From IMG/VR virus record IMGVR_UViG_3300017762_000090, positions 1 through 22,338 of that record: a DNA stretch of 22,338 nt. The stretch is one strand, 5' to 3'. The stretch's first letter is position 1. Each line of letters begins with the position of its first letter. Below the pieces are notes generated by a model. It searched no databases, was not told where the DNA came from, and was given only the letters and a program-made list of their open reading frames with translations. The DNA comes from a virus. Both the position numbers and the translations under genes were made by a program. Positions 2,181-15,833 of this stretch are shown here, one piece after another.

Positions 2181-5100
2181 TCAGTTCAGTGCGTCAATGA
2201 AAGATTGTGGGCCAGCAGGGGCAGCGCGCTGGATGTCCAGTGATGTCCGCTCCTTTATGTAAGCATTGTCAGCCCTTTTCTGCTCGGCGTCACGTAGCTC
2301 TGCCTGCAGTGCTGGGCTCTCTTCCGCAAGCAACAACTTCGCTTGCTTTGCATACCTGTTCCAAACTGCCTTAATTCTTGTTAGGCGTGGTGATTGGTAT
2401 GTCGCTGAGGGGCGTGTGCGATCTTCTGGATTGCCACCCATTGGCGTCTCCTTGTATGTGATGTCCTTAGTAATAAGGTCGCGGATTTCTTCAGCCAGCA
2501 ACTTGCCGCCAGGGTCTGGGCTTGTTCCTGTCATGCGAACTACTTGGGTGCCAAGCACTTCAAGGCGATCTAACTCTTGAGGCGACAACACGCGAGACGG
2601 TAAGTCTGAGCCAAATGCGGTGTCAGACCACCACGTTTCCATGGACCCTTGGCCATGGATGCGACGCAACTCAATATCAATAGGGTCGTCAGACAAAGTG
2701 CGCGTTACAAACGCATTGGTAGGACTAAACATTTGAGTCGCGCTGCGCAAGAACCATTGGTCCTCAGGGATTAAGTTCAGGCCAAGCGCTTGAGGCATTG
2801 GAATAGGTGCGCCAGTAAACGGATGCCGCTGTGGTGGGAACTCTTTGCTTGCACCTGGCATGCGCATGCGAATCATTTGCAATGTCTGCAAGGGGATAGC
2901 AAGGAAGGGGTTGTCAGTAGCAGGTCCAGGCGGTTTGAGTTGTGGGCCAACGCGGGGCGCAGCAAAAGTTGATGGCATAAACGCACGCAAATTAGTTGAG
3001 ATGTATTTGACCCATGGATCAACTCGGCCTTCTTTTTTACCAAGCTTGCTGTTTTCCATTGCGTCGGAATACAAGTCAATGATTCGACGGAAAGGCTCAA
3101 GGATTTGAGAATTAAATTTGGCAGGGCCAAGCTCACGAGCTGTGTGCCATATCGCTGCATGCACTTGTGCAGACGCAGTTTCTGCGTCCTCGTAAGGAAC
3201 ATTTTCAACTGTTTCCCTAAATTCACCTAACATGCCAAGCACAGTCGCTAAGCTGTCAAGCGCACTAAGCCTAATTTGTGGAGTAAATGTATCGGTATAT
3301 GGAACTCTAAATTGAATAGATGCACCTTGATATCCTGTAGATGTTGCCTTTGCTCCTGTAAAACGTTCTCTCCAATTAGTGGGATCAAACCCAGTAACTC
3401 GGATCATGTCAGACTGCATTAATGCAAGCCCACCTGACATTGCAAGCGTTCCAAGCGCTGCATCGCCAACAGCTTTGTAACGAGTAAACTTGTCTTCGCT
3501 ATGCAAATCGCGCCAAAGCGTATCCGTAAGCAAGCCCCCGCCAGGCGTTAGCCGCATTGCAGCTTTTAAGATATTTACTGGGCCGCGAGGCAGTGCATAA
3601 ATAACACCAGCAAGCGGATATTTGTTTACAAAATCACCAGCAGCGCGCGCAGGCGACCACAAAGCAGACATGGCAGGAGGCCCTTCATACCCGCCTTTCA
3701 TGTAAGCGTATGCGTGCTTATCAATATCAATAGGATCTGTTAGCCCCTGTTGCCGTGCTTTTCTAATTCCCATTTGATACGTGCGCGGCTCATTCACAAC
3801 TTTCAATGGGTCCGTAAACGCGACGTAGTCCATGACGTTTTTTGCGTGTATTCCAGTTAGCGCACCCCGCTTAACTACAGCACCATTTGGCATTGTGACG
3901 TCACGGAATTGTTTTTGCAGCAGCCTTTCCGCCTCTTCATTTGCATAATTCCAAACCTCTTTAGATCCTGGCTTGCCAATACCTATTTGCTCTGCGCGCT
4001 CTAGCTGTTCGTCCATTAAGCGCGCCCACTCAGCAGACGGGCCAACTAAGCCATTAATAAAACTATCGACCATAGTGATTGGCCGGCCAACTATGGCTTT
4101 AATTCCCTTAGCGGCTCCGCCAGTTGCTCGCTCAATGTAGTTAACAGCAATAGCAGTAAAGTTTGGATTATTTCGATCCATATACCACTGGCCTTCGTCT
4201 ATCTCTTGCATTTCAATATCTTGCAAACTGCCTTGTTTTGGTTGATCCGCAATCTTGCGATCCATGCCGACATAGTCGACGCCAAGATTTCCAAACGCTT
4301 CGTTGTGGCGGAACGACGCGCCAGTTAAGCGCAATGCGTAATTGAGATTTGAAACATATTTGGCATACATGCGGAAGGCCAGGCCAGTAGCCCGTGTTGC
4401 GATCCGCGCTTCGCCAAACCGACCTTGTGCCGCAAGACGTGTCGCATCAGTGGCTGCGCCAAAAGCAGTGCCTAAAGGCATACCAGCAGCCCTAAATGCA
4501 CTACCCAGCAACATCGTCCAGTGCGTGCGTGGTGCCGACAGGATTGACATGACATGCCACTGCCTAATGTTTTGCGCAATGCCTGAACCAGGCGCTGCAT
4601 CACGCATAAAGTTTGCGATGTTTGACCGATATTTTTTGTCAGTCTTGGCTTGAATCGCGACCTCAGCAAGCGCTTTCATGTGGTCGTCGACATTGCCTGT
4701 CGACTTGTTTTGCTTGACAGCGTTGACTACCTCTGCTGGCAGCACGCGATCAAGCATGTTGCCCGCAGCAGCTGTAGCTTCAACAAACTGTTCTGCTGCT
4801 GATTTACCTGGCTGATTAGGCGGAACAATTTCTGCATTTGAACCGACAACGCGGTTGGCAGCATTGACGTCGTAAATAACAACTTCGTCAACCGGCCCGC
4901 CCTGGCGGCCAATCATTTCTGGCTCGTGCCGCAATCCCTGATAGCCGAGTCCAGTGACGTAGTCCTGCAACCCTGCCTTTTGCGCAGGTGTCAGCTCTAG
5001 GCCATTAGGCCCTTCACGCATACGACCCAGGTCCAGGTCGTTAAGAAGGTCAGCAAGATCTTTGTCCATGGACGGCAAGTCCATGATCTTGATGTCTTTC

Positions 5101-8100
5101 TGCAACGAGCCTTCAACTAGCGCGCCGCCGTAGCCAGCCATTCCTTCATAGCCGCTGCTGCTGGCTGTGAAATAAACACCGTCACCTAGTGCGCCAGCAG
5201 TTGGCTGCAAGCCTTCTGCTAAGGCGGCGTTGCCAATTTCTTCTGAGGTTGCATGTTGCAAGGTGACGCCAGGGATCAGCTTGGAGTTAAGGATGTTGGG
5301 GTCAGCCACCATCTGGGCAACACGCAAGCGTTGGCCTGCCACTCTCGTCATCTCGGCGTAAGCCGCGCCGACTTTTAGCGAGTCGTTAATAGAGGCATAC
5401 AACTTGCTTGCCGCAGAAGCTTTGTCTGCACTCGTTGTTGCATTGCCGTAGCTAATAGCAGCAATCGCTGCGTCGTTGTTTGCAGCATCTAGCAAGATCT
5501 GCGTTGCCCTAATAGAGGCCAGGTCGTCACCTGCTTGCAAGTCGCCACGCAAAGCACGGTCAGACATTTCAATCAGGCGATCTATATCGGCCCCTGTTTC
5601 GCTAAGAATCTCAATGGCTTTGCCGTTAATTTGCTCGTCAGTAAAAGTGTCGCGGCCAGTGAACTCAGCGCGATCAAGGTCGCCTGTAATTCCACGACGC
5701 ACAGCATCAAATGACGCTGCCAACTCATCACTAGTTAGCTCGATGTACCGGGTATTACCGCTTGGGCTGGCATAACGGCGAACATCGTCTTGCAATAACT
5801 CTTCGATTGTGATCTCGCCCTTCCTAAGGGCGTCCATGTTTTCAGCAATCTTGCGAGAGACTTCATCAGGCTCAGGCATTTGCACAGCCAGTTGCGGACC
5901 AGCGTCAGCAACTTGCTCTGCTTGACGCATGGCAATGTCGCCCTGGAAAGCATTTTCAAATACGTCATCCCAAGTTTGATAGCCGCGGCCTAGTAGCCAA
6001 TTGCCAGCGGCTTCTGCAATTTGTGAAATCTTGGCAAATGGTTGTGCCCATGTGGCCTTTTGATAATCACCGCCAAACTTCCACCAGCCACTAAAGGCCA
6101 TTGCCTGTACTTCTTTGCTTCCAATTTTTCCACTTAGTATTGCTTCAGCCTGCTCTGGAACAGTCTTTGCCGCCAATTCTCGAATCTCGTTATCTGCATT
6201 GCCAAGAATTTGTAGCTCACCCTTTGTTAAAAAGAGATCTTGCAGGCGGTGAAATGCTTCGTGGTATGCAGTAATTAACGTACGAGTAAAAGAAAGCGGA
6301 TTAGATTTATGGAACATTGCGATCTTAATTAGATCGTCTGCTGTTTTCTGACCACGCAAAAACATGCCTGAAGCTGAATATGCCTGGCCTTTTTTGCCGC
6401 CGTACGCACGAGCTTGCGCACCAGTGAACTGGCCCTCAATCCTGTCCACAAACTCAACATTGACGTCAACACCTGCAACCTTTGTGATTTCTTGAACCAT
6501 CACAGACTTTTCTTGCGACGTAAGAACGCTGCGTCCTGTGTAGTCCTGACCAAGTCGACCTGAGCCGCGAGTGCTGCTAACGGGCGGCAGTTCAGCTAGC
6601 TGCCCTCCGTCCCGCCAGGCTCCACTGTCAGGGACTGTGTAGCGATCGCCAGTCGCTTTGGCACCAAGGTCGGCACGGATGCGAGCACCAGCCTCCTGTA
6701 TTACTGCGTCATGCAGGCCCAGCTCGTTTTGCAGGTAAGCAATGAACTTGTCGCTGTTTTTTGAGGGACGACCTGACTTCTTGGTGACGCTGTAGATCAG
6801 CGCATCGACGTCTGATTCCCACTCCAAAACTGTTGAGCGATACCGCGGCGAGCCGTACTTGAAAGGCACTGTTGGCGGTGATTGCGGCGCAGTAACAGGC
6901 TGCGCTTCTGGCTGTGCAACAGGCTCAACAGGCTGCTCAATTGTCGGCTCGTTGATCTTGGACGGGTTAGAAGTAATTTGGCCGCCTGCATTTTGCAGTT
7001 GTGCCAACACTCTGTCGAACTCTTCTTGCGGTAAATGCAACAAGCTTTTGCGCAGCTTGGCCTCATCAATCTTTGGCTGTGGGGGCTCGGGCGCAGGGGC
7101 CTCTGCCCGTGGCGCAGGCTGAAATTCCTCTTGCAAAATTGCTCGCAGTTTCTGCAAGTTTTCGCGGACAACAGTTACTGCCTTTTTCTTCGGCGTGACT
7201 TGTGACGTCAGCTCTGTGATCAACTCACTTAGTGGGCCGACCATGTTTGCGCGCTGATTAAACACAGCTGCGCCCTGCATCGCTTCCTGACGCGCAGCTC
7301 CTGACGCCTCTACGTTGATGACATTGCCAGCGGCTTCAAGGAAGCCAGCTTTGCGCTCGCTAGCAGCAGCAGCCAATGCGTTGATTTCGGCCTTTAGCTG
7401 CGCACGAATTGCAATGCGCACCTCTAGCTGGCTGCTGAAGTCACTACTCAGCAATTGATCAAACCCTGGCAATGCCAAAGCATTGGGATCAGTAACTGCT
7501 TCTACCTGCGAAAAACGAGCAATGCTTGCTGCTTCTGCTGTTTTACTTGCGGACCACTTGCGCTTTTTAGCTGCTGCCGCCAGGTCACGCATAACCTGTT
7601 CTTCGCCACCACTGCTGCCAATAGCAGCGCCAATATCAATCGTGACGTCACCACGAGCGACTTGGTCAAACAGTTCTTGCGGCAGTTTTGATAGAGGTGC
7701 GGCCTTGAGAAATAGCTTTTCTGCTGCTTCGTTACGGATTGGCATGCCTTGGCCAATCATGTCTTCAGCGGTCATTGCTGACTCGCGCATGATTTTTGCT
7801 GCATCGACAGCAGTGCCGTTGCCTTCAGAGATGTTCTGCATTGCGCCCTTAATGCGCGCTTCTGCGGCATCAGCAGCTTCCATAAACCGAACGTTGATCG
7901 ACTGCCGATCTGCTTTCAACGCTCTTGCCAAACGGTTGTGGCCGTTGACGACGTAAACCTTGCCATCTGCAGGATCACGCCAAACGCTAATAACGTTGGC
8001 CATGTCTGCGTTAAAGACAGTTGTGTCAGCCAGCGAGCCGCTTTGCCCTGTCTTAGTTAGTCGGCCAGCTTCCTTGAATTGAAACCGTTGCGCGTCAACA

Positions 8101-9413
8101 GCAATATCGGCAACAGGATATGAGCCGACAGTGCCAGCCTCATAGTCCGCACGGGTCGGCGGCTCTAGCTCTGCAACAGCAGGTGGCTCTAGCGCTGTGT
8201 CTGGAACAATTTCGCCAGGAGCAGTTGCTTTGTAAATCGCTTCAATGTTTTCAACGCGCTCCTGCGTCTCAATAATTTCATCAGTTGCTTGCTGCAAGCG
8301 CTGCAAGCTATCGCTTGCCTCAAGCGTATTGACTTCAGCAATTAGGTCAGGCTCTGGCTTGCGGCCTGTTAGCCGCAGGGGAGGCTCTGCCGGCTGAGCT
8401 ACTGGCGTTGCTGCTACGTCAACTGCTGGCTGCTCTACTGCAGCCTTGTCTATTTCTTTTGCAAAATTGACTTGCGCAACTACACGGTCAACATGAGCGC
8501 CAACCAATTGCTTTTTAAGTATTCCAGATCGACGAGCGATTGGCCCGCCAACGGTTTCAAGGGCTCCGCCTAAAAGAGTGCCGGCAAAGATTCCTGAAAT
8601 GCCATTCTTTAAGCGCTGTATTGCGGCAGGATCGTCGTCGCTTGCAGCTAAGAAATTGTTGACAAAGCCTTCGGCAAATGTGCCGTCAGTCTTTGACTTG
8701 ATAAGCGCACCAGCGCTTTCAAAAGGATTTTCAAAAAAGTAATCGTTAACAAAGCCAGGGGCATAGCCCTCCTGCGCGCCTTGAATTAATCGTCCTAAAA
8801 ATCTTTGGCCTGAACCACTTGGGCCTGCTGCTTGGCTACTCCTTAATTTTGCTGCAGCTTTAGGCGCTATAGGAATAGCTGGCGGATTAATGCCAGACGC
8901 TTTCATAGCTTTGCCAATTGCTACGAATTGCAGTGCTGACGCGCCCATGTCAGCAATAAAATCCATTGCCGGATTGCCGCTGGGCTGATACAGCGGTTGA
9001 CCTGTATTTGGATTAGGTGGGTTTGGCTCAGCCTGCGTTGGCGGCCTAAGGCCCAGGCGTTCGGCAGCACCAAATCCACCAGGCTTATTAAGTTCGACCG
9101 CTGCAAAATTCTGCAGGTTTTGTCCTACTCGACCTGCCAATAGCTCACCAAAGTCACGCGGCAACGTACCTTCAGGGCCAAGAAGAACGCTGGCTGGGTC
9201 AGATATTGCGTTTTGCAAGACTTCGCCAATGTTGTAACCGGCTTCTTCCTGTGGCTGCTCAGCGGTTGGTTGCGACAGTTGCTCGATGACAGGCTGCACC
9301 GCCTCAACGACAGCCTCTGGATCGATCTGACCTTGCTCTGCTGGCGCTTCAGGCTCCATTACCTGAGGCATGGCAAACGAGTAAACGCCGTTTTCGTCTT
9401 GTACTAATGGCAT
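2181..9413 (-). CDS. Giant internal virion protein, gp16-like polyvalent protein with ParB-, zinc-protease- and ADP-ribosyltransferase-like domains
   Basis: This 2410-residue protein occupies the T7 gene 16 position (T7 gp16: 1318 residues) and is probably ejected ahead of the DNA. Residues 1-60 are acidic. About 145-300 contain a helical module (QGAQEGYAPGFVNDYFFENP, then DPAAIQRLKNGISGIFAGTL) typical of large phage polyvalent proteins. About 430-530 have a ParB-like motif (VVNGHNRLARALK, His492). About 960-1160 contain HEAFH (His1051-His1055) with a candidate third zinc ligand in EVQAMAF (Glu1101). About 1380-1530 resemble an ADP-ribosyltransferase: LQHATSEE (His1387), LGDGVYFTAS (Tyr1414) and PVDEVVIYDV (Glu1510). 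Residues 1600-2410 are helical, with LSAPRTHW, YPLAGVIYALPRGPVNIL and a hydrophobic stretch near 1980. No N-terminal transglycosylase is seen. Virion role is confident from position; the enzyme calls rest on motifs only. Confidence 0.9.
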   Translation of the reverse strand: MPLVQDENGVYSFAMPQVMEPEAPAEQGQIDPEAVVEAVQPVIEQLSQPTAEQPQEEAGYNIGEVLQNAISDPASVLLGPEGTLPRDFGELLAGRVGQNLQNFAAVELNKPGGFGAAERLGLRPPTQAEPNPPNPNTGQPLYQPSGNPAMDFIADMGASALQFVAIGKAMKASGINPPAIPIAPKAAAKLRSSQAAGPSGSGQRFLGRLIQGAQEGYAPGFVNDYFFENPFESAGALIKSKTDGTFAEGFVNNFLAASDDDPAAIQRLKNGISGIFAGTLLGGALETVGGPIARRSGILKKQLVGAHVDRVVAQVNFAKEIDKAAVEQPAVDVAATPVAQPAEPPLRLTGRKPEPDLIAEVNTLEASDSLQRLQQATDEIIETQERVENIEAIYKATAPGEIVPDTALEPPAVAELEPPTRADYEAGTVGSYPVADIAVDAQRFQFKEAGRLTKTGQSGSLADTTVFNADMANVISVWRDPADGKVYVVNGHNRLARALKADRQSINVRFMEAADAAEARIKGAMQNISEGNGTAVDAAKIMRESAMTAEDMIGQGMPIRNEAAEKLFLKAAPLSKLPQELFDQVARGDVTIDIGAAIGSSGGEEQVMRDLAAAAKKRKWSASKTAEAASIARFSQVEAVTDPNALALPGFDQLLSSDFSSQLEVRIAIRAQLKAEINALAAAASERKAGFLEAAGNVINVEASGAARQEAMQGAAVFNQRANMVGPLSELITELTSQVTPKKKAVTVVRENLQKLRAILQEEFQPAPRAEAPAPEPPQPKIDEAKLRKSLLHLPQEEFDRVLAQLQNAGGQITSNPSKINEPTIEQPVEPVAQPEAQPVTAPQSPPTVPFKYGSPRYRSTVLEWESDVDALIYSVTKKSGRPSKNSDKFIAYLQNELGLHDAVIQEAGARIRADLGAKATGDRYTVPDSGAWRDGGQLAELPPVSSTRGSGRLGQDYTGRSVLTSQEKSVMVQEITKVAGVDVNVEFVDRIEGQFTGAQARAYGGKKGQAYSASGMFLRGQKTADDLIKIAMFHKSNPLSFTRTLITAYHEAFHRLQDLFLTKGELQILGNADNEIRELAAKTVPEQAEAILSGKIGSKEVQAMAFSGWWKFGGDYQKATWAQPFAKISQIAEAAGNWLLGRGYQTWDDVFENAFQGDIAMRQAEQVADAGPQLAVQMPEPDEVSRKIAENMDALRKGEITIEELLQDDVRRYASPSGNTRYIELTSDELAASFDAVRRGITGDLDRAEFTGRDTFTDEQINGKAIEILSETGADIDRLIEMSDRALRGDLQAGDDLASIRATQILLDAANNDAAIAAISYGNATTSADKASAASKLYASINDSLKVGAAYAEMTRVAGQRLRVAQMVADPNILNSKLIPGVTLQHATSEEIGNAALAEGLQPTAGALGDGVYFTASSSGYEGMAGYGGALVEGSLQKDIKIMDLPSMDKDLADLLNDLDLGRMREGPNGLELTPAQKAGLQDYVTGLGYQGLRHEPEMIGRQGGPVDEVVIYDVNAANRVVGSNAEIVPPNQPGKSAAEQFVEATAAAGNMLDRVLPAEVVNAVKQNKSTGNVDDHMKALAEVAIQAKTDKKYRSNIANFMRDAAPGSGIAQNIRQWHVMSILSAPRTHWTMLLGSAFRAAGMPLGTAFGAATDATRLAAQGRFGEARIATRATGLAFRMYAKYVSNLNYALRLTGASFRHNEAFGNLGVDYVGMDRKIADQPKQGSLQDIEMQEIDEGQWYMDRNNPNFTAIAVNYIERATGGAAKGIKAIVGRPITMVDSFINGLVGPSAEWARLMDEQLERAEQIGIGKPGSKEVWNYANEEAERLLQKQFRDVTMPNGAVVKRGALTGIHAKNVMDYVAFTDPLKVVNEPRTYQMGIRKARQQGLTDPIDIDKHAYAYMKGGYEGPPAMSALWSPARAAGDFVNKYPLAGVIYALPRGPVNILKAAMRLTPGGGLLTDTLWRDLHSEDKFTRYKAVGDAALGTLAMSGGLALMQSDMIRVTGFDPTNWRERFTGAKATSTGYQGASIQFRVPYTDTFTPQIRLSALDSLATVLGMLGEFRETVENVPYEDAETASAQVHAAIWHTARELGPAKFNSQILEPFRRIIDLYSDAMENSKLGKKEGRVDPWVKYISTNLRAFMPSTFAAPRVGPQLKPPGPATDNPFLAIPLQTLQMIRMRMPGASKEFPPQRHPFTGAPIPMPQALGLNLIPEDQWFLRSATQMFSPTNAFVTRTLSDDPIDIELRRIHGQGSMETWWSDTAFGSDLPSRVLSPQELDRLEVLGTQVVRMTGTSPDPGGKLLAEEIRDLITKDITYKETPMGGNPEDRTRPSATYQSPRLTRIKAVWNRYAKQAKLLLAEESPALQAELRDAEQKRADNAYIKERTSLDIQRAAPAGPQSFIDALN

Positions 9414-9416
9414 CGT

Positions 9417-12239
9417 TTACTGGCCCCGCAGGAATCGCAATCCATTTTGATAGTGACCACCGCCAGGAAGCAAATCTTTCATTGCGCTGTTGACACTATT
9501 GCCATTGACGTCCTGTGCGTTCATGTAGTCCTCGCCGTTGGGGCCGCGGCCATCTGCATTGCCAACCAGGATCGCGGCATAAATGCGTTCCATGCCATCG
9601 CCAGGACGCACGCCCCTGTCAATTAGGTATTGCGCAGCAGCCATGGCTTGCTCCTCAAACGTGCTGGCAGCACTAACGTTGTATGTTCTTTGGTTGTCAG
9701 GGCTGAACTGGATTAAGCCGATATAACCAAGTTGATTTTTTTCTGCAGGGTCAAAGCTGCCAATTGTTTCGTAAGACATGGCAGCAGCTAGATCGTCAGG
9801 ACGAATCCCCACCCTTGCCGCTGCGCTAACAATTGCCTGAGCACGAGCGCTAGTGCCAATAATTGCGGGCGGCATTGAAGGCATTGCGTTGGCAGGTGCG
9901 CCGGGCAAGACGGAACCAATCAAGCCAACTCCTAAGCCAAGCATGCGATCAATCATTGACACCTCTTCTACGGGCTGTTGACGCTCTTGTAGTTCAACGT
10001 CAAATCCGCTAGCTGGAAACTGGGTGTCGAGAATATTTTGCACTTGATCTACAGGTATTTCGTTCTTAATTAGTTCACGTTCAAGAAACGTGCGCATGCC
10101 TCCGTAGGCATTAACTGCAGCAGAAATATGCGGGGGCAGTGATTGACCTAGCGCAGCCATATCAATAATTCCGTTAATAGCTTTTTTTGTAAATATGGGA
10201 AACGGTCCTTCAGCTGCCTGCTGCAAATTTTCCTGCAACTGTCTGTCACTTTGCTTGTTAAAATCTTGCTGCAAAGTATTGAGATCTTGATACTGGGCAA
10301 AGCCAGGATCAAGGCTGCTTGCTGCTAAGCCGTACTTGGCTGCGCCTTCGTCGCCCGCAAGCATGTTTGAGAATTGCTGCGGAAAAGCTGCCAATGCTTC
10401 GTCGCCGCCTTTTTCGTACAACTCACGCATTAACTCCATGCCGTCACGCGCCATCTCTGGGCGACGGATTGCAAACAATTGCTCTTCTTTGTCTGTAGAC
10501 GAGCCGCCAATGCTGCTAGCAGCTTTGCCTGCGTCTTTGTATTGACTAAGGCGTAGGTTGATTAGTTCTCTCATTGTTTTTTGCGCAGCCTTGTAACGGC
10601 CTTCGCGCATTGCTCGCAATTGTTTTAAGCGGCTGCCACCAGCGGTTGGGCTAATAAGACGTTGCTCAATAGCTTGCGATATTTTTGCTTCAAGTTCTTC
10701 AACGCCACGGGCAGCAGGATCGTCAGCAATTTTGCCCATCTGCATTTCTACGTCTGTAAAGAAATCAGCTTGCGCGTCTGCTCGCCAAATTTTTGGAATG
10801 TTAGTAGTGGCTGTATTAAATTTACTCATAACACTTGCCCGCAATAAATCTTGTCCTTGAAGTTCAGAAAATAATTTTGCTTGCACTTCTGCTTTCTTGT
10901 CTTCGTACTCCGTCAATGATTCTTCGGTTGGCAAGCCGTCAGAATCAAACTTAATAACGCTATTTACTTCGGATAATGCTTTGGCGTAAATTTGCTCTAC
11001 GTCTAAATCTTGTTGATTTTTTTTCTTAGTTTTAATATCAGATGTTCTTGTGTTCCACTGGCGCCGCAATGTTTGCAGATCTTGCGCATCCATCTGATTG
11101 ATGTATCGCAATTTGTCGTTAACAGTGCCGTCTGCCTTAATGCGATCAGCTACTGGACCTACCATTAACGTGCCAAGCGTTTCAAGTACCTCGTCAAAAG
11201 ACTTTGGCCTATTAGTTGAATTGTTGAGCGCTGCAACAGCATCAGATATAAAATCTTTGCGCAAGTCATCTACCTTGCTTAAAGATAAATTTGGGATGCC
11301 TTTAGGGCCAATGTTTTCAAAAAATTCTTGAAACTCTTCTGCAACATCAGCACTAGTCATTGTGCTGCCCGGTCGTTGCGCAGCGGCAATTGTGGTGTTA
11401 ATTACAATATTGCCTTGCGTTCTTATTTCGCCAAGCTGGTAATCCATGTGCTGCTTGGCTTGCGTTCCCTTTGCGCCAGCAATTGCCTGGATAATTGTTG
11501 GCATAACCTTGCGGGCTTCAGACGGCGTTAGCACGCGATCGCCATACAATTCTTGCTGCACGATTTGCATGAACTCTGAACTTTCCGGCTTAAGAGAGCG
11601 CAGCTCAATTTCATTGCCATTGGCAAGCGTGACAGTTGGATTGCCGCTTACAAACGCACTAAGTTGATGCGCTCGGCTTTGTACTTCTAAACGATTAAGC
11701 GTGCTTTCAAAATATGGATTGTTATCAATCTTGGCCTGGTATCTAATTAAAGCGTCTTCTGCTTCTTTCCGTTGCTGCGGTGTTGCGTTTTCATCTGTAG
11801 CCGCCTGCTCCATCTGGCGAAAATTGCTACGCAGCTTGTTGTTTGTTGTAGACCCAAACAGCGTGCCAGCTGCCGCTTGCTCAGCTTCAAGTTTTAGTCG
11901 CTCTGTTTCACGCTGCTTTTGACCAAGAATGTTTGTCGTCAAGCCTTTTAAGCCTGTATCAAAATCACCAAGCGATTGAGCAAGCCTTTGCAAATCGCTA
12001 ACGCTTGTAGGCTCTGGCTCGGTTTGCATGGCACCAAGCTTTACGGGGCCAGGTGCGCGCAGCTCTGCCGGCGTTGAAAAGGTGTCAACAACTGACGCCT
12101 GTGGCTGCAACCGTGGCGGCTCAATGCCACTGAATTGAATAGGAGCGCTGCCTGACTGTTGGTCGCCTAAGCCAACCGTGCGCTTTGAGCTGCGACGGTT
12201 GGTGTTGCCAGTGGCTTTGCCAAGTGAAAGTTTTGCCAT
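9417..12239 (-). CDS. Internal virion protein C, T7 gp15-like, with C-terminal lysozyme-like domain
   Basis: This is an ejection-core protein of 940 residues (T7 gp15: 747). It starts with a basic linker, then a Pro-rich segment ending in DTFSTPAEL, a pattern common in gp15 relatives. A long helical body follows (about residues 80-740) with charged coiled-coil stretches such as LGQKQRETERLKLEAEQ. Residues 755-795 include a hydrophobic Gly/Pro/Met linker. Residues 795-940 look like a lysozyme or lytic transglycosylase domain: MSYETIGSFDPAEKN carries the candidate catalytic Glu824, and GYIGLIQFSPDN follows 20 residues later, as in SLT-type enzymes. This domain would locally open peptidoglycan during ejection. 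In T7 the corresponding activity is at the N-terminus of gp16. It lies between the gp14- and gp16-like genes, in T7 order. Confidence 0.88.
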   Translation of the reverse strand: MAKLSLGKATGNTNRRSSKRTVGLGDQQSGSAPIQFSGIEPPRLQPQASVVDTFSTPAELRAPGPVKLGAMQTEPEPTSVSDLQRLAQSLGDFDTGLKGLTTNILGQKQRETERLKLEAEQAAAGTLFGSTTNNKLRSNFRQMEQAATDENATPQQRKEAEDALIRYQAKIDNNPYFESTLNRLEVQSRAHQLSAFVSGNPTVTLANGNEIELRSLKPESSEFMQIVQQELYGDRVLTPSEARKVMPTIIQAIAGAKGTQAKQHMDYQLGEIRTQGNIVINTTIAAAQRPGSTMTSADVAEEFQEFFENIGPKGIPNLSLSKVDDLRKDFISDAVAALNNSTNRPKSFDEVLETLGTLMVGPVADRIKADGTVNDKLRYINQMDAQDLQTLRRQWNTRTSDIKTKKKNQQDLDVEQIYAKALSEVNSVIKFDSDGLPTEESLTEYEDKKAEVQAKLFSELQGQDLLRASVMSKFNTATTNIPKIWRADAQADFFTDVEMQMGKIADDPAARGVEELEAKISQAIEQRLISPTAGGSRLKQLRAMREGRYKAAQKTMRELINLRLSQYKDAGKAASSIGGSSTDKEEQLFAIRRPEMARDGMELMRELYEKGGDEALAAFPQQFSNMLAGDEGAAKYGLAASSLDPGFAQYQDLNTLQQDFNKQSDRQLQENLQQAAEGPFPIFTKKAINGIIDMAALGQSLPPHISAAVNAYGGMRTFLERELIKNEIPVDQVQNILDTQFPASGFDVELQERQQPVEEVSMIDRMLGLGVGLIGSVLPGAPANAMPSMPPAIIGTSARAQAIVSAAARVGIRPDDLAAAMSYETIGSFDPAEKNQLGYIGLIQFSPDNQRTYNVSAASTFEEQAMAAAQYLIDRGVRPGDGMERIYAAILVGNADGRGPNGEDYMNAQDVNGNSVNSAMKDLLPGGGHYQNGLRFLRGQ

Positions 12240-12241
12240 GG

Positions 12242-12946
12242 TTAAGACCTAATGTACTTGCCGCCTTTCCACTCAAAGCCAGCGTCTTTAATGCCACCTG
12301 CAACGCCAAGGCCAGTGCTGACACCGCCAATCGCAGAATTAACGCCAGACAAAATGTATGGCGTACTGCTCGGCGCCGCCCTCTTAATAGGCTCTATTGG
12401 ATCAAGCACTGTCTGCTCAATATACGGAGTAACGCTTGCCACTCTGTTGGCTCTTGTTATTGCTGCTGTTCGTTTCTGTTGGTCTGAGCTTCTTCCAACG
12501 AAAGCAAGATTAGTGTCGCTGTAATAATCAAATTGAGCGCGTTCTCGGTCCACATCCGCAAGCAAGCTATCGATAACGTTGCCGACACGGCCTGAGGCCA
12601 AGACAGTGCCGCGCTGTTCAGCTGCTTCCAGAGCTGCCCCTCGTTTCTGTTGAGCCGTCGCTTGCTGTTGTTCCATGTAAGCAAGGTTGACCTGCCGGAT
12701 ATTACTGGCCTCCACCATCCTGGCCAACTCTTCGTTTTGCTGCATCTGCTGGTTGCGAGCCAACGCTTTTTGCGCTTCGTTGTCGCGCGATGCCTGAGCG
12801 CTTAATTTGCTGTATTGAAACTGCTGCTCAGCTACTCGGTTTTGGTATGCAACAGCCTGCCTTTGCGCTTGATATTGAGCCGAAGCCTGGGCAATGCCTA
12901 GACCTGCGCTAACGACACCAAGCGTGATAGATACGGGATCACACAT
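12242..12946 (-). CDS. Internal virion protein B, T7 gp14-like
   Basis: T7 gp14 is an ejection protein that forms the outer-membrane channel when DNA enters the cell. This copy has 234 residues (T7: 196). It begins MCDPVSITLGVVSAGLGIAQ, a short hydrophobic Ala/Gly segment shared with gp14 relatives of aquatic podoviruses. A long Gln/Ala-rich coiled coil follows (about residues 24-110, with QYQAQRQAVAYQNRVAEQQF). ASGRVGNVIDSLLADVDRERAQFDY is the most conserved family region. A glycine-rich hydrophobic segment near the end (SAIGGVSTGLGVAGGI) may insert in membrane. GAGGAT lies nine bases before the ATG, one of the better ribosome sites here. The next gene starts two bases after the stop. Confidence 0.88.
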   Translation of the reverse strand: MCDPVSITLGVVSAGLGIAQASAQYQAQRQAVAYQNRVAEQQFQYSKLSAQASRDNEAQKALARNQQMQQNEELARMVEASNIRQVNLAYMEQQQATAQQKRGAALEAAEQRGTVLASGRVGNVIDSLLADVDRERAQFDYYSDTNLAFVGRSSDQQKRTAAITRANRVASVTPYIEQTVLDPIEPIKRAAPSSTPYILSGVNSAIGGVSTGLGVAGGIKDAGFEWKGGKYIRS

Positions 12947-12948
12947 GA

Positions 12949-13473
12949 TTAGATCCTCACAAATTCATAGAACGTGCGTTGCTGTGGTCCAAAGTCGTCG
13001 TGTTGGTTAATGAAAGTAAATCCCATCCAGCGCAACCAACGCAAGTGAACAGTGTTGCGGGCGTCTACAAAGTTGAACAGCACCGGATACTTGGACTGCA
13101 AATCTGCAAGATGGATCCGCGACTGCCGCAAAAACTCCCATTTGTCTGCAACGTCAGTCAGCATTTCGCATCGACCCAGCATCCAAATTCGACCCGCTGT
13201 TGAGCCGTCAGGGACGACACCCCACATGCCAATTGCACGACCATGGCGGCCGACAATAGTCATGCAAGGCTTGCTCATAAAGAAAGAGTAAAGCAAAGAC
13301 TGATGTGGCGTAAGCCCTGACTGGGCCATTACTTCTTCAACATCAGGCCGGCGCATGCCATCAGCGACGTAAGTCACGTCATTAATGACAGAAGGTCTTT
13401 GATAGGCGCGGGTTACAGCCTGTTGGCTCGGCTGTGATACCACCCTTCCCATTCGGCCGATTGCACTCTGCAT
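12949..13473 (-). CDS. gp13-like internal or morphogenesis protein (GNAT-fold type)
   Basis: This gene is 174 residues as annotated from the first ATG. T7 gp13 is 138 residues, and its family begins near a segment like NDVTYVADGMRRPDVEEVM, which here lies at residues 31-49. The true start may therefore be downstream of 13473, for example the ATG at 13452. Later segments MWGVVPDGSTAGRIWMLGRCEM, HLADLQSKYPVLFNFVDARN and LRWLRWMGFTF follow the acyltransferase-like fold seen in gp13 relatives: a beta strand, a helix, then a terminal WMGF motif. T7 gp13 is needed for virion maturation and correct internal core loading. Enzymatic activity is uncertain. No Shine-Dalgarno precedes either candidate start. 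It ends two bases before the gp14-like start. Confidence 0.82.
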   Translation of the reverse strand: MQSAIGRMGRVVSQPSQQAVTRAYQRPSVINDVTYVADGMRRPDVEEVMAQSGLTPHQSLLYSFFMSKPCMTIVGRHGRAIGMWGVVPDGSTAGRIWMLGRCEMLTDVADKWEFLRQSRIHLADLQSKYPVLFNFVDARNTVHLRWLRWMGFTFINQHDDFGPQQRTFYEFVRI

Positions 13474-15833
13474 GGTAGCGGGCTATCGCTAAACAATTCA
13501 ATTTTCGCCTCTGTATTGCGTGCCATTACAGGGGCGCGGAAGGATCCGGTACGCAATGCAGGGCTACCAAGGGGGAACTGGCCGCTACCAGTAGTTGTGG
13601 CATTGAATGGATAAATCTGTGTTGATCGGTCCTGCGGGGTGATCTTGAGATCAAAGTGCGACGTCTCGTCAAAAATTACTGTCCAAGTACGCAGTTGCAG
13701 GTGCGGGCCAGCCACAACGGCTAAGCCGCCACCAGGCGGTTGCTCTTTTAGGTACGGCGTTGAGAACTCGTAATTCATTTCAAACAATTCCCCAACAAAA
13801 AACTTTGCGCTAGTCAGGTCGCCGCGAACAACCATGGTGCCGTTTCCGCCTGCGCCGCCTGTAGCTGTCTCGCTAATTGGAGAAATGACGACACCGTGAT
13901 TAATGGTGTTGCCCGTTGCTGCTCGACCAACCACTACCATCGTGCCGGTGTTAGCCATTGGGTACGGCAGTGTGATCGTGGATTGCACGTCTAAGCCTGA
14001 TGGATTGGTTAGCGCAACGCTGCATTGAGCCTCTGTCGTCTTGCGATCAAGCAAAATTTCAAACGTGCTATCAACGTCAACGTTTTCAGGGCGCAATGAT
14101 GTTTTTTCTAAATAGACGCCGTCACTACATTGAACTACGGCGTACATGTCGCTGTCTAAAATTGATACGCCAATAATGCTTTTGTTGGCCGCAACTTCCC
14201 AATACGACCAAGACGATTGCAGTTTGGTGTCATCTTCAAAGAAAAACTTGTAGAGATACAGTCGCCGCGGTTGATCTTTGCTCAGCATCACAATTGCCTC
14301 TTCCGACACAGAAGCAGTCAAGTTGACCAAATTGGCAGGAATAAATTTAGGAACTGACGACGTTACTTCCTCTGACAAAGGAACTGGGCCGCTGGCGTCA
14401 GGCAGGAAAAACTCGCGCAGTCCTGCAAACGTACCCTTTGGAATACCGAAATAAACCGTGCGGCCAACGCCTACAGGGTCAACACCGTCTAGCTGGTCAA
14501 ACGTTGTCGTAGCCGTAACTGTTGCTGTTTTGGGCGTAAGCGACGTACCAAGTGCTGTGGCGCCAGTGTCTAGACGAAACTGGCCATGGCGACTGAACAG
14601 CAGCAAAGTATTAGCAAACGCCAAACTGCTAACTAAGAAATTAATTTCTTGGCCACCAGTGCTGATATCAATAGGATCTGAGTCAATAACTGTTTGCACA
14701 GTTTCTGGCCAAAATCTGTCGTAAGCGTCAGAGGCAGACAGGATCACATTTTCATCTGCCAATAACACCAGACGGTTGCGAAATGTGTTTATGTTTTTTA
14801 TTTGGCTGCCAACAAATGTTGGGTTAGGCGCGGTAAGTGCATCGCCCGCAGATCTGCCGGTCCAAGCAAATTCTTGAAAAGTAAACGTGCCGTTTGCGTT
14901 GCGAATCAACACATGCGGCATTGTATTGGTGTCAAACAAATACTGAATGTTTGGCGCTACCGTTTCACGCCATACTCCAGGACCAAAGCCGCTGCCGGCT
15001 GACGCTACAAATTGAACGTAGTAATCATCAAAGCTAGTGCTGGCAGAGCCCTGAATTTCAACAATAAAGTTGTGCTCTGCAATTGTTGGCAGGTCTGTAA
15101 TGTCGTTGACCGTACCTTTAATAGATGAGGTTGATGCTGCAGTCGCTGTGTCGCTGCTACTTAAGGTGTAATCACCTCCATCGTCTTTGGTAATCCGAAT
15201 AATGTAATCGTCGTTAGTAACAGTAAAGCCACTAATTGTATTTAATTTTGTCGCTAGATCGTTAGCAATAGTAATCGTGTCAGGCGCTGAACCGCTTGTG
15301 CCACCAGTCGTGTGGGTCTTGACTGTGCCGTTTAGGTTGACGCGATAAGTAGTGTCGTAGTCGGCCGACTTGATGAACACCATGGACTTGGTGCCCCAGT
15401 TGTACGACAGGCTTGACGTGTTCATAGCAACCGTCTTTTCACGGTTGACGATGAAGGTATAGTCAGCAATCGATGCAACCCGGAATTGCTCACTGGGCTC
15501 GCCAGTGACATCCAAGTAATTTGTGCCGTCTGGCGTGCTGATGGTCTTGACTGACCCGTCCAAGCCAAAGACTTTGATAGCACCGTCCTGAATTAGGACT
15601 AGGTATTGAATCGTGCCGTCACGGTCAACAATGTGCGTGAAGGGCCTAGTAGAGCCTGCGCTGCCCGTAAACAAACGCGCAAGGTGATCCATCGACGGGC
15701 GCTTCTTCAGCCCTTCTACAGGGCTAGACATGCAATTAACGACAGCCTCTGCTTGCGATGACAGGCGCAAGGCAGCAGGTTGCTGGCTAACCCCGTTAAT
15801 CAAGTTCGGGATCGAGCTGCTGATTAAAGGCAT
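13413..15833 (-). CDS. Tail tubular protein B (nozzle), T7 gp12-like
   Basis: This protein makes the hexameric nozzle of the short tail, to which the fibres attach. It has 806 residues against 794 in T7 gp12. The N-terminus (SSIPNLINGVSQQPAALRL, then VEGLKKRPS) is the classic family signature. Further features are the repeated WSYWEV- and FLLDRK-like beta-rich segments, NTFRNRLVLLADENVILSAS and a C-terminus ending RVQSAEWEGWYHSRANRL. The ending is typical of the family, where the last residues form part of the nozzle. No clear Shine-Dalgarno precedes the ATG. The 3' end overlaps the start of the gp13-like gene by 61 bases if that gene begins at its first ATG. Confidence 0.94.
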   Translation of the reverse strand: MPLISSSIPNLINGVSQQPAALRLSSQAEAVVNCMSSPVEGLKKRPSMDHLARLFTGSAGSTRPFTHIVDRDGTIQYLVLIQDGAIKVFGLDGSVKTISTPDGTNYLDVTGEPSEQFRVASIADYTFIVNREKTVAMNTSSLSYNWGTKSMVFIKSADYDTTYRVNLNGTVKTHTTGGTSGSAPDTITIANDLATKLNTISGFTVTNDDYIIRITKDDGGDYTLSSSDTATAASTSSIKGTVNDITDLPTIAEHNFIVEIQGSASTSFDDYYVQFVASAGSGFGPGVWRETVAPNIQYLFDTNTMPHVLIRNANGTFTFQEFAWTGRSAGDALTAPNPTFVGSQIKNINTFRNRLVLLADENVILSASDAYDRFWPETVQTVIDSDPIDISTGGQEINFLVSSLAFANTLLLFSRHGQFRLDTGATALGTSLTPKTATVTATTTFDQLDGVDPVGVGRTVYFGIPKGTFAGLREFFLPDASGPVPLSEEVTSSVPKFIPANLVNLTASVSEEAIVMLSKDQPRRLYLYKFFFEDDTKLQSSWSYWEVAANKSIIGVSILDSDMYAVVQCSDGVYLEKTSLRPENVDVDSTFEILLDRKTTEAQCSVALTNPSGLDVQSTITLPYPMANTGTMVVVGRAATGNTINHGVVISPISETATGGAGGNGTMVVRGDLTSAKFFVGELFEMNYEFSTPYLKEQPPGGGLAVVAGPHLQLRTWTVIFDETSHFDLKITPQDRSTQIYPFNATTTGSGQFPLGSPALRTGSFRAPVMARNTEAKIELFSDSPLPCRVQSAEWEGWYHSRANRL

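Follow-up and report, generated by a model that had tools for sequence, protein, structure and literature searches.

A predicted lytic-transglycosylase domain at the C-terminus of the gp15-position protein of a T7-like phage, at a site that may accept exchangeable wall-cutting enzymes

The lytic transglycosylase of phage T7 lies at the N-terminus of the ejection protein gp16, where Pfam SLT (PF01464) matches residues 15-127 at 1.7e-31. In some other phages the protein in the gp15 position ends in an enzyme. The gp36 of phiKMV (898 residues) and the gp36 of SP6 are listed as gp15-like (Table 1 of PMC8954989), C-terminal lysozyme activity is given for the former and the latter is listed as a lysozyme (PMC5380687). 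The cryo-electron microscopy description of Pectobacterium phage PhiM1 places a lysozyme-like domain at residues 718-903 of OEP, an octameric gp15-type protein, and an endolysin-like domain at residues 268-528 of the tetrameric gp16-type protein (PMC11440229). An enzyme in this place is already known in kind from these three phages, and the present analysis adds cyanopodophage A4. The stretch analysed here, called the window, is the whole of positions 1 to 22,338 of the IMG/VR virus record IMGVR_UViG_3300017762_000090, a 22-kb record whose minus strand carries late genes of a T7-like phage. Profile matches and a structural model point to a lytic transglycosylase in the last 145 residues of its gp15-position protein, very probably virion-associated and used for entry, with the gp15 C-terminus acting as an enzyme socket. 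The features concerned are as follows.

9417..12239, minus strand: gp15-position ejection (internal virion) protein, 940 residues, with the enzyme at its C-terminus; an open reading frame (ORF) between the T7_gp14 match and the 2410-residue protein.
9423..9854, minus strand: predicted lytic-transglycosylase (GH23/SLT-type) domain, residues 796-939; from profile boundaries, AlphaFold2, fold matches and a PDB profile match.
9768..9770, minus strand: Glu824, the predicted catalytic acid; codon position, invariant (E44 of the 61-sequence alignment).
9708..9710, minus strand: Gln844 of the GLIQ motif; codon position, invariant (Q64 of the same alignment).

The assignment of residues 796-939 to the lytic transglycosylases (GH23/SLT-type) is well supported by profiles and by the predicted fold. 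A profile built from 12 domain sequences matches 9udh, a phage lytic transglycosylase of solved structure, at 9.6e-20 and 9k2v, the internal protein from cyanophage A4, at 6.9e-7, and a PHROG profile matches residues 794-902 at 3.5e-11. The AlphaFold2 model of residues 781-940 was made from a 61-sequence alignment, the sequences coming from the window or from contigs gathered as related loci, and has a predicted local distance difference test score (pLDDT) of 92.8 and a predicted template modelling score of 0.87. Foldseek and VIA-align place it among the lysozyme-like folds of the Slt/MltE/gp16 kind; the best match is 9udh (Z 13.3), followed by MltF, Slt and MltE (about 10) and residues 8-145 of T7 gp16 (Z 9.2). 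Lytic transglycosylases of this type have a catalytic Glu (motif I), a G-x-x-Q motif (motif II) and a third, AYNxG-like motif. All 61 aligned sequences, which come from widely different architectures, share Glu824 and Gln844 without exception. Between the window and L010, a related locus, conservation along gp15 is highest in the domain, at 78-85% compared with 10-56% for the body. A GH24 (T4-lysozyme-type) identity was considered and rejected, as both the fold and the profile matches point to lytic transglycosylases. The original prediction of a peptidoglycan-cutting domain of the lysozyme superfamily at this end of the protein is thus borne out by the model and by the 9udh match; the 940-residue ORF ends in the motif that it quoted, and both residues lie where it placed them.

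The described systems resemble the window in different respects. The gp36 of phiKMV agrees with it in gene position and in the end of the protein that carries the enzyme, but by eye its C-terminus resembles a T4-type (GH24) lysozyme, and the window-type profile finds no match there. SP6 gp36 likewise has a C-terminal lysozyme domain in the gp15 position; this one is Pfam Phage_lysozyme (PF00959), at residues 770-905. PhiM1 OEP is alike in its published description, as a gp15-type protein with a C-terminal lysozyme-like domain, and differs in that the gp16-type protein of the same phage is reported to have an endolysin-like domain too. The pre-ejectosome protein of A4 (gene 28 of Anabaena phage A-4L, L180:25321-28497, 1058 residues, PDB 9k2v) is in the gp15 position, followed by a 1717-residue protein, and has a domain of the window family at residues 869-978 (profile 4.4e-9); unlike the window protein, it also has an M23 peptidase domain at 664-755. 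The T7 gp16 enzyme shares the fold (23% identity) and the inferred task, but is a Pfam SLT domain and sits at the gp16 N-terminus. Among named T7-like phages the closest relatives of the domain are those of Rhizobium phage Pasto and Mesorhizobium phage Lo5R7ANS (36% and 32% identity), where the domain forms the first ~145 residues of the gp16-position protein instead. P-SCSP1 (MPP-C) shares the gp15 body and has an enzyme at the gp15 C-terminus, although that enzyme is Pfam SLT_3. The ejection genes of P-SCSP1 could not be functionally annotated, according to their description (PMC9860041). In P-SCSP1d (L003:11995-14853) the unannotated gp15-position protein has this lysozyme-like SLT_3 domain at its end, with a Pfam match of 1.1e-13.

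No enzyme was detected by sequence on the adjacent gp16-position protein of 2410 residues. No lytic Pfam family matches it, either over the whole protein (E up to 1) or over its first 450 residues (E up to 0.01), and the window-type domain profile does not match it, so the statement in the original prediction that the first 430 residues carry no such motif holds at this level. This kind of test has power: it recovered the T7 gp16 N-terminal domain, with the Pfam SLT match given above, and 12 window-type domains at the start of other gp16-position proteins. AlphaFold2 gave no confident fold for the first 450 residues (pLDDT 41, 12 sequences). Profile comparison of the 2410-residue protein with T7 gp16 detected no homology (hhalign probability 0.3%), and the name gp16-like is therefore a statement of position; the corresponding proteins of phages with the enzyme at the gp16 N-terminus match T7 gp16 at 99.2%.

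The distribution of enzymes was surveyed in T7-like loci collected by the domain (a biased route) and by gp12, together with named phages and after removal of duplicate contigs. The survey holds 63 loci with a complete gp15-position ORF, 61 of them with a gp16 start, and the Pfam scans covered the last 330-400 residues of gp15 and the first 400-450 of gp16. At the gp15 C-terminus the window-type domain was found in 12 loci, SLT_3 in 11, endolysin-related domains in five, phage lysozyme PF00959 in two (the second member taken to be phiKMV), M15 peptidase in two (L110 and L128), a glucosaminidase in one (L132) and a GH23-like domain in one (L116); the endolysin-related and GH23-like assignments rest on PHROG matches and sequence reading. 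At the gp16 N-terminus there were 12 window-type domains, two SLT and one Phage_lysozyme2. Neither end had an enzyme in 14 loci, one of them (L134) having LysM and an unnamed domain and being counted as none. Pfam and profile scans of these ends found enzymes on both proteins in none of the 61 loci; exclusivity is not claimed, because the Pfam scans were confined to the protein ends and both proteins of PhiM1 reportedly have enzymes. LysM also precedes the C-terminal domain in the gp15-position proteins of L130, L131, L148, L162 and L166, as it does in L134.

The side that carries the enzyme changes rarely in comparison with its type. In a quick gp12 tree of 61 loci (no bootstrap, with some forks joining long branches) the side changes at least twice and, among typed loci, the type at least 16 times. 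In the part of the tree that contains the window, the enzyme is at the gp15 C-terminus wherever one was found. The 15-row clade of the window (gp12 at least 59% identical) includes window-type, SLT_3, M15, GH23-like and endolysin-related enzymes, and several of its gp15 bodies are recognisably related to that of the window. Two marine phages, L124 and L134, have DNA that is 93.7% identical over 7,357 and 94.3% over 4,040 aligned positions; the identity is broken only at the gp15 C-terminal domain, by 438 bases in one and 745 in the other. Sixteen close relatives with a readable gp15 tail have three different C-termini (10, 4 and 2 members) next to a gp16 start that is 88-100% identical to that of L124. 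We read this pattern as exchange of enzyme cassettes. The survey suggests that the end of gp15 is an exchangeable slot for several unrelated wall-cutting families. This looks new: the literature searched contained no statement that phages exchange the enzyme at this end as a cassette. In L134 (7342-8091) and L198 the gp15 C-terminal domain after LysM belongs to no named family and is the alternative to SLT_3 in near-identical phages.

In the proposed role, the gp15-position protein would be packed in the head and leave through the tail before the DNA. In the periplasm its terminal enzyme would then open the murein by cutting glycan strands and let the tunnel of gp14-, gp15- and gp16-type proteins through, as the N-terminal domain of gp16 does in T7. 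With the enzyme on gp15, a virion may have about double the number of copies, because gp15-type proteins are described as octamers and gp16-type proteins as tetramers in PhiM1 (PMC11440229). Recombination at the socket would replace enzyme cassettes while the gp15 body and gp16 stay. Several observations weigh against this reading. No Pfam family matches residues 796-939, and the third motif is YAAILVGNADG, where N-terminal relatives have a canonical-looking NAG, in forms such as YSAINAG. The labels gp15 and gp16 rest in the window on position and not on homology to T7: the gp15-position body aligns to T7 gp15 at an hhalign probability of 0.6% (78.8%, E 1.6e-5, to the gp15-position proteins of phages with the enzyme at the gp16 N-terminus). 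The 35 loci fetched by gp12 that have a complete gp15, with 21 enzymes at the gp15 C-terminus and two at the gp16 N-terminus, leave 12 where none was detected; either some of these phages lack the enzyme or the searches overlooked it in some loci. The strongest cases of exchange are in a neighbouring T7-like group, with gp12 about 36% identical to that of the window, and not among the nearest kin of the window, which all carry the same enzyme. A history that joins the C-terminal gp15 domains to the whole 38-row clade that contains the gp16 N-terminal rows is not rejected (approximately unbiased (AU) test, p 0.144).

The last of these points bears on where the domain came from. The original prediction held that it had moved from gp16 to gp15 across the boundary between the two genes, and a shift of stop and start codons or a local recombination in the ancestry of the phage could in principle have done this. 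Relatives of the same family do adjoin the junction, at about residues 1-145 of the gp16-position protein in 12 of the 61 loci with a readable gp16 start (Pasto, Lo5R7ANS and ten others), and the unrejected arrangement unites in one clade the C-terminal gp15 domains, the gp16 N-terminal domains and those domains of other phages that branch among the gp16 N-terminal rows. In the domain trees, however, the window-type gp15 domains are separated from the gp16 N-terminal ones by domains of other phages, and an exclusive clade of the two is rejected (AU p 9.7e-6 in the first tree and 3.5e-6 in the later one). The window-type group consists of 12 rows in the later tree (support 94/88), without L066, whose gp15 C-terminal domain falls in another group in the first tree. 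The nearest non-T7-like row to the gp15 domains in that first tree is a tape-measure-like protein by eye (L028), different enzyme families fill the gp15 slot throughout this part of the gp12 tree, and the gp16-position protein of the window has no detectable homology to the T7-type one. A boundary slide in this lineage is thus unlikely, although it keeps a small share of our expectation. We favour repeated recruitment to one junction as the history suggested by the trees; movement from gp16 appears less likely and is not established. What stands of the original proposal is that relatives of the domain sit at the gp16 N-terminus and that the architecture survey finds enzymes at the gp15 C-terminus and none detected on the gp16 N-terminus of the window. 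The movement itself is unsupported: the gp15 C-terminus is the usual side in this part of the tree, type changes far oftener than side, and C-terminal gp15 enzymes are already in print in the accounts cited above. Readthrough of the stop codon to make a gp15-gp16 fusion was also considered and rejected. The window does have both genes in one frame, but so do 14 of 32 loci with the enzyme at the gp15 C-terminus, 9 of 15 with it at the gp16 N-terminus and 5 of the 14 others, and a shared frame therefore sets nothing apart; the stop codon is TAA. The gap between the two genes is mostly 0-6 nucleotides in phages with the enzyme on gp15; L002, L047 and L051 have gaps of 57-58 nucleotides with a G+C-rich inverted repeat followed by a T-rich run (by eye).

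Two further explanations concern the function of the domain. It could have degenerated into a structural relic that cuts no murein and has a part only in packing or in assembling the tunnel, as the lack of a Pfam match, the divergent third motif and the T7-like loci with no detected enzyme might suggest. Such a relic would hardly be expected to keep the predicted catalytic Glu and the Gln of GLIQ invariant in 61 sequences, or to be the best kept part of gp15 between the window and L010, and we regard it as very unlikely. Phage lytic transglycosylases, phiKZ gp144 among them, have the same fold, and the window is only part of a genome, so an endolysin acting in progeny release at lysis was weighed as well. 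Here the domain is fused to a 795-residue ejection-type protein between the gp14-like and the giant ejection protein, and virion-associated lysins in the same position are described as entry proteins in PMC5380687 and PMC11440229. A role in lysis therefore seems highly improbable, and an entry enzyme at the end of gp15 is the reading retained.

The window encodes terminase, portal, scaffold, capsid, gp11, gp12, gp13-like, gp14-like, gp15-position, gp16-position and tail fibre proteins. A search of 50,697 phage records found no DNA that matches it closely. The nearest cultured relatives are the Prochlorococcus MPP-C phages P-SCSP1, with gp16-position proteins 37% identical over 95%. The gp15-position protein is 71-73% identical to those of five IMG/VR loci and its body profile matches P-SCSP1; no solved relative of the body was found. 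The neighbouring genes are:

2181..9413, minus strand: gp16-position giant ejection protein, 2410 residues; named by position, no lytic domain detected by sequence.
12242..12946, minus strand: gp14-like ejection protein; Pfam T7_gp14, 1.2e-8.
12949..13473, minus strand: gp13-like protein; Pfam Phage_T7_Gp13, 3.1e-6, and phrog_308, 1.4e-34.
13413..15833, minus strand: gp12 nozzle (tail tubular protein B), the marker for the survey tree; Pfam Phage_nozzle, 2.1e-249.

Within the gp16-position protein, residues 418-739 (window 7197-8162) match the far end of a long PHROG 'portal protein' profile (phrog_21, 2.6e-41), and relatives of this region were found inside large proteins of other phages. It includes NGHNRLARAL (7917-7946), which is ParB-like by eye. 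Residues 1051-1055 (window 6249-6263) read HEAFH, a zinc-protease-like motif of the HExxH type, with no convincing Pfam match around it.

The stretch just before the enzyme has a further feature.

9906..9941, minus strand: hydrophobic 12-mer LGLGVGLIGSVL, residues 767-778 of the gp15-position protein; Kyte-Doolittle mean 2.14, rank 0 of 928 windows.
9885..9893, minus strand: Ala-Asn-Ala, residues 783-785, a signal-peptidase-like (AxA) site of hypothetical function, between the hydrophobic segment and the enzyme.

The 12-mer is the most hydrophobic of the gp15-position protein and is followed by Pro-Gly-Ala-Pro-Ala-Asn-Ala. In the window clade and its sister clade of Prochlorococcus phages, the most or nearly the most hydrophobic gp15 stretch lies before the enzyme, with a basic residue ahead of it and an Ala-x-Ala or Val-x-Ala site behind. 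In P-SCSP1 and three survey relatives this pattern recurs with different residues, ahead of an enzyme of another type, SLT_3; as the two clades are sisters, this may be one inheritance. Of 34 proteins with the enzyme at the gp15 C-terminus, a rule-based scan that simplifies the (-3,-1) rule for signal peptides found a match no more than ~100 residues ahead of the enzyme in 13 (seven of the window clade, four P-SCSP1-like, L110 and L127), and the motif was rejected as a general feature of such proteins. Among the other 29 gp15s only L001 and L178 matched, near the N-terminus. Shuffled gp15s had at least one match anywhere in 21% of cases for proteins with the C-terminal enzyme, 16% for the others and 33% for the window, and therefore only place, rank and conservation speak for a signal-peptide-like motif. 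The literature searched held no statement that such a segment precedes a gp15 C-terminal enzyme. It is conceivable, if doubtful, that on arrival this segment of gp15 is inserted by the protein in the inner membrane and that the host signal peptidase frees the swappable enzyme in the periplasm. If so, the phage would deliver a released, and not a tethered, wall-cutting enzyme.

The analysis pinpoints the most likely wall-cutting protein in a marine T7-like group whose ejection genes lack functional annotation (PMC9860041). The pattern of an exchangeable slot deserves a proper survey. Should the gp15 C-terminus be a general socket, passage through the murein of each host would be set by a replaceable cassette and not by the core ejection machine, and natural phages that differ only in the cassette could serve to test how the tunnel is ordered and spaced in the envelope.

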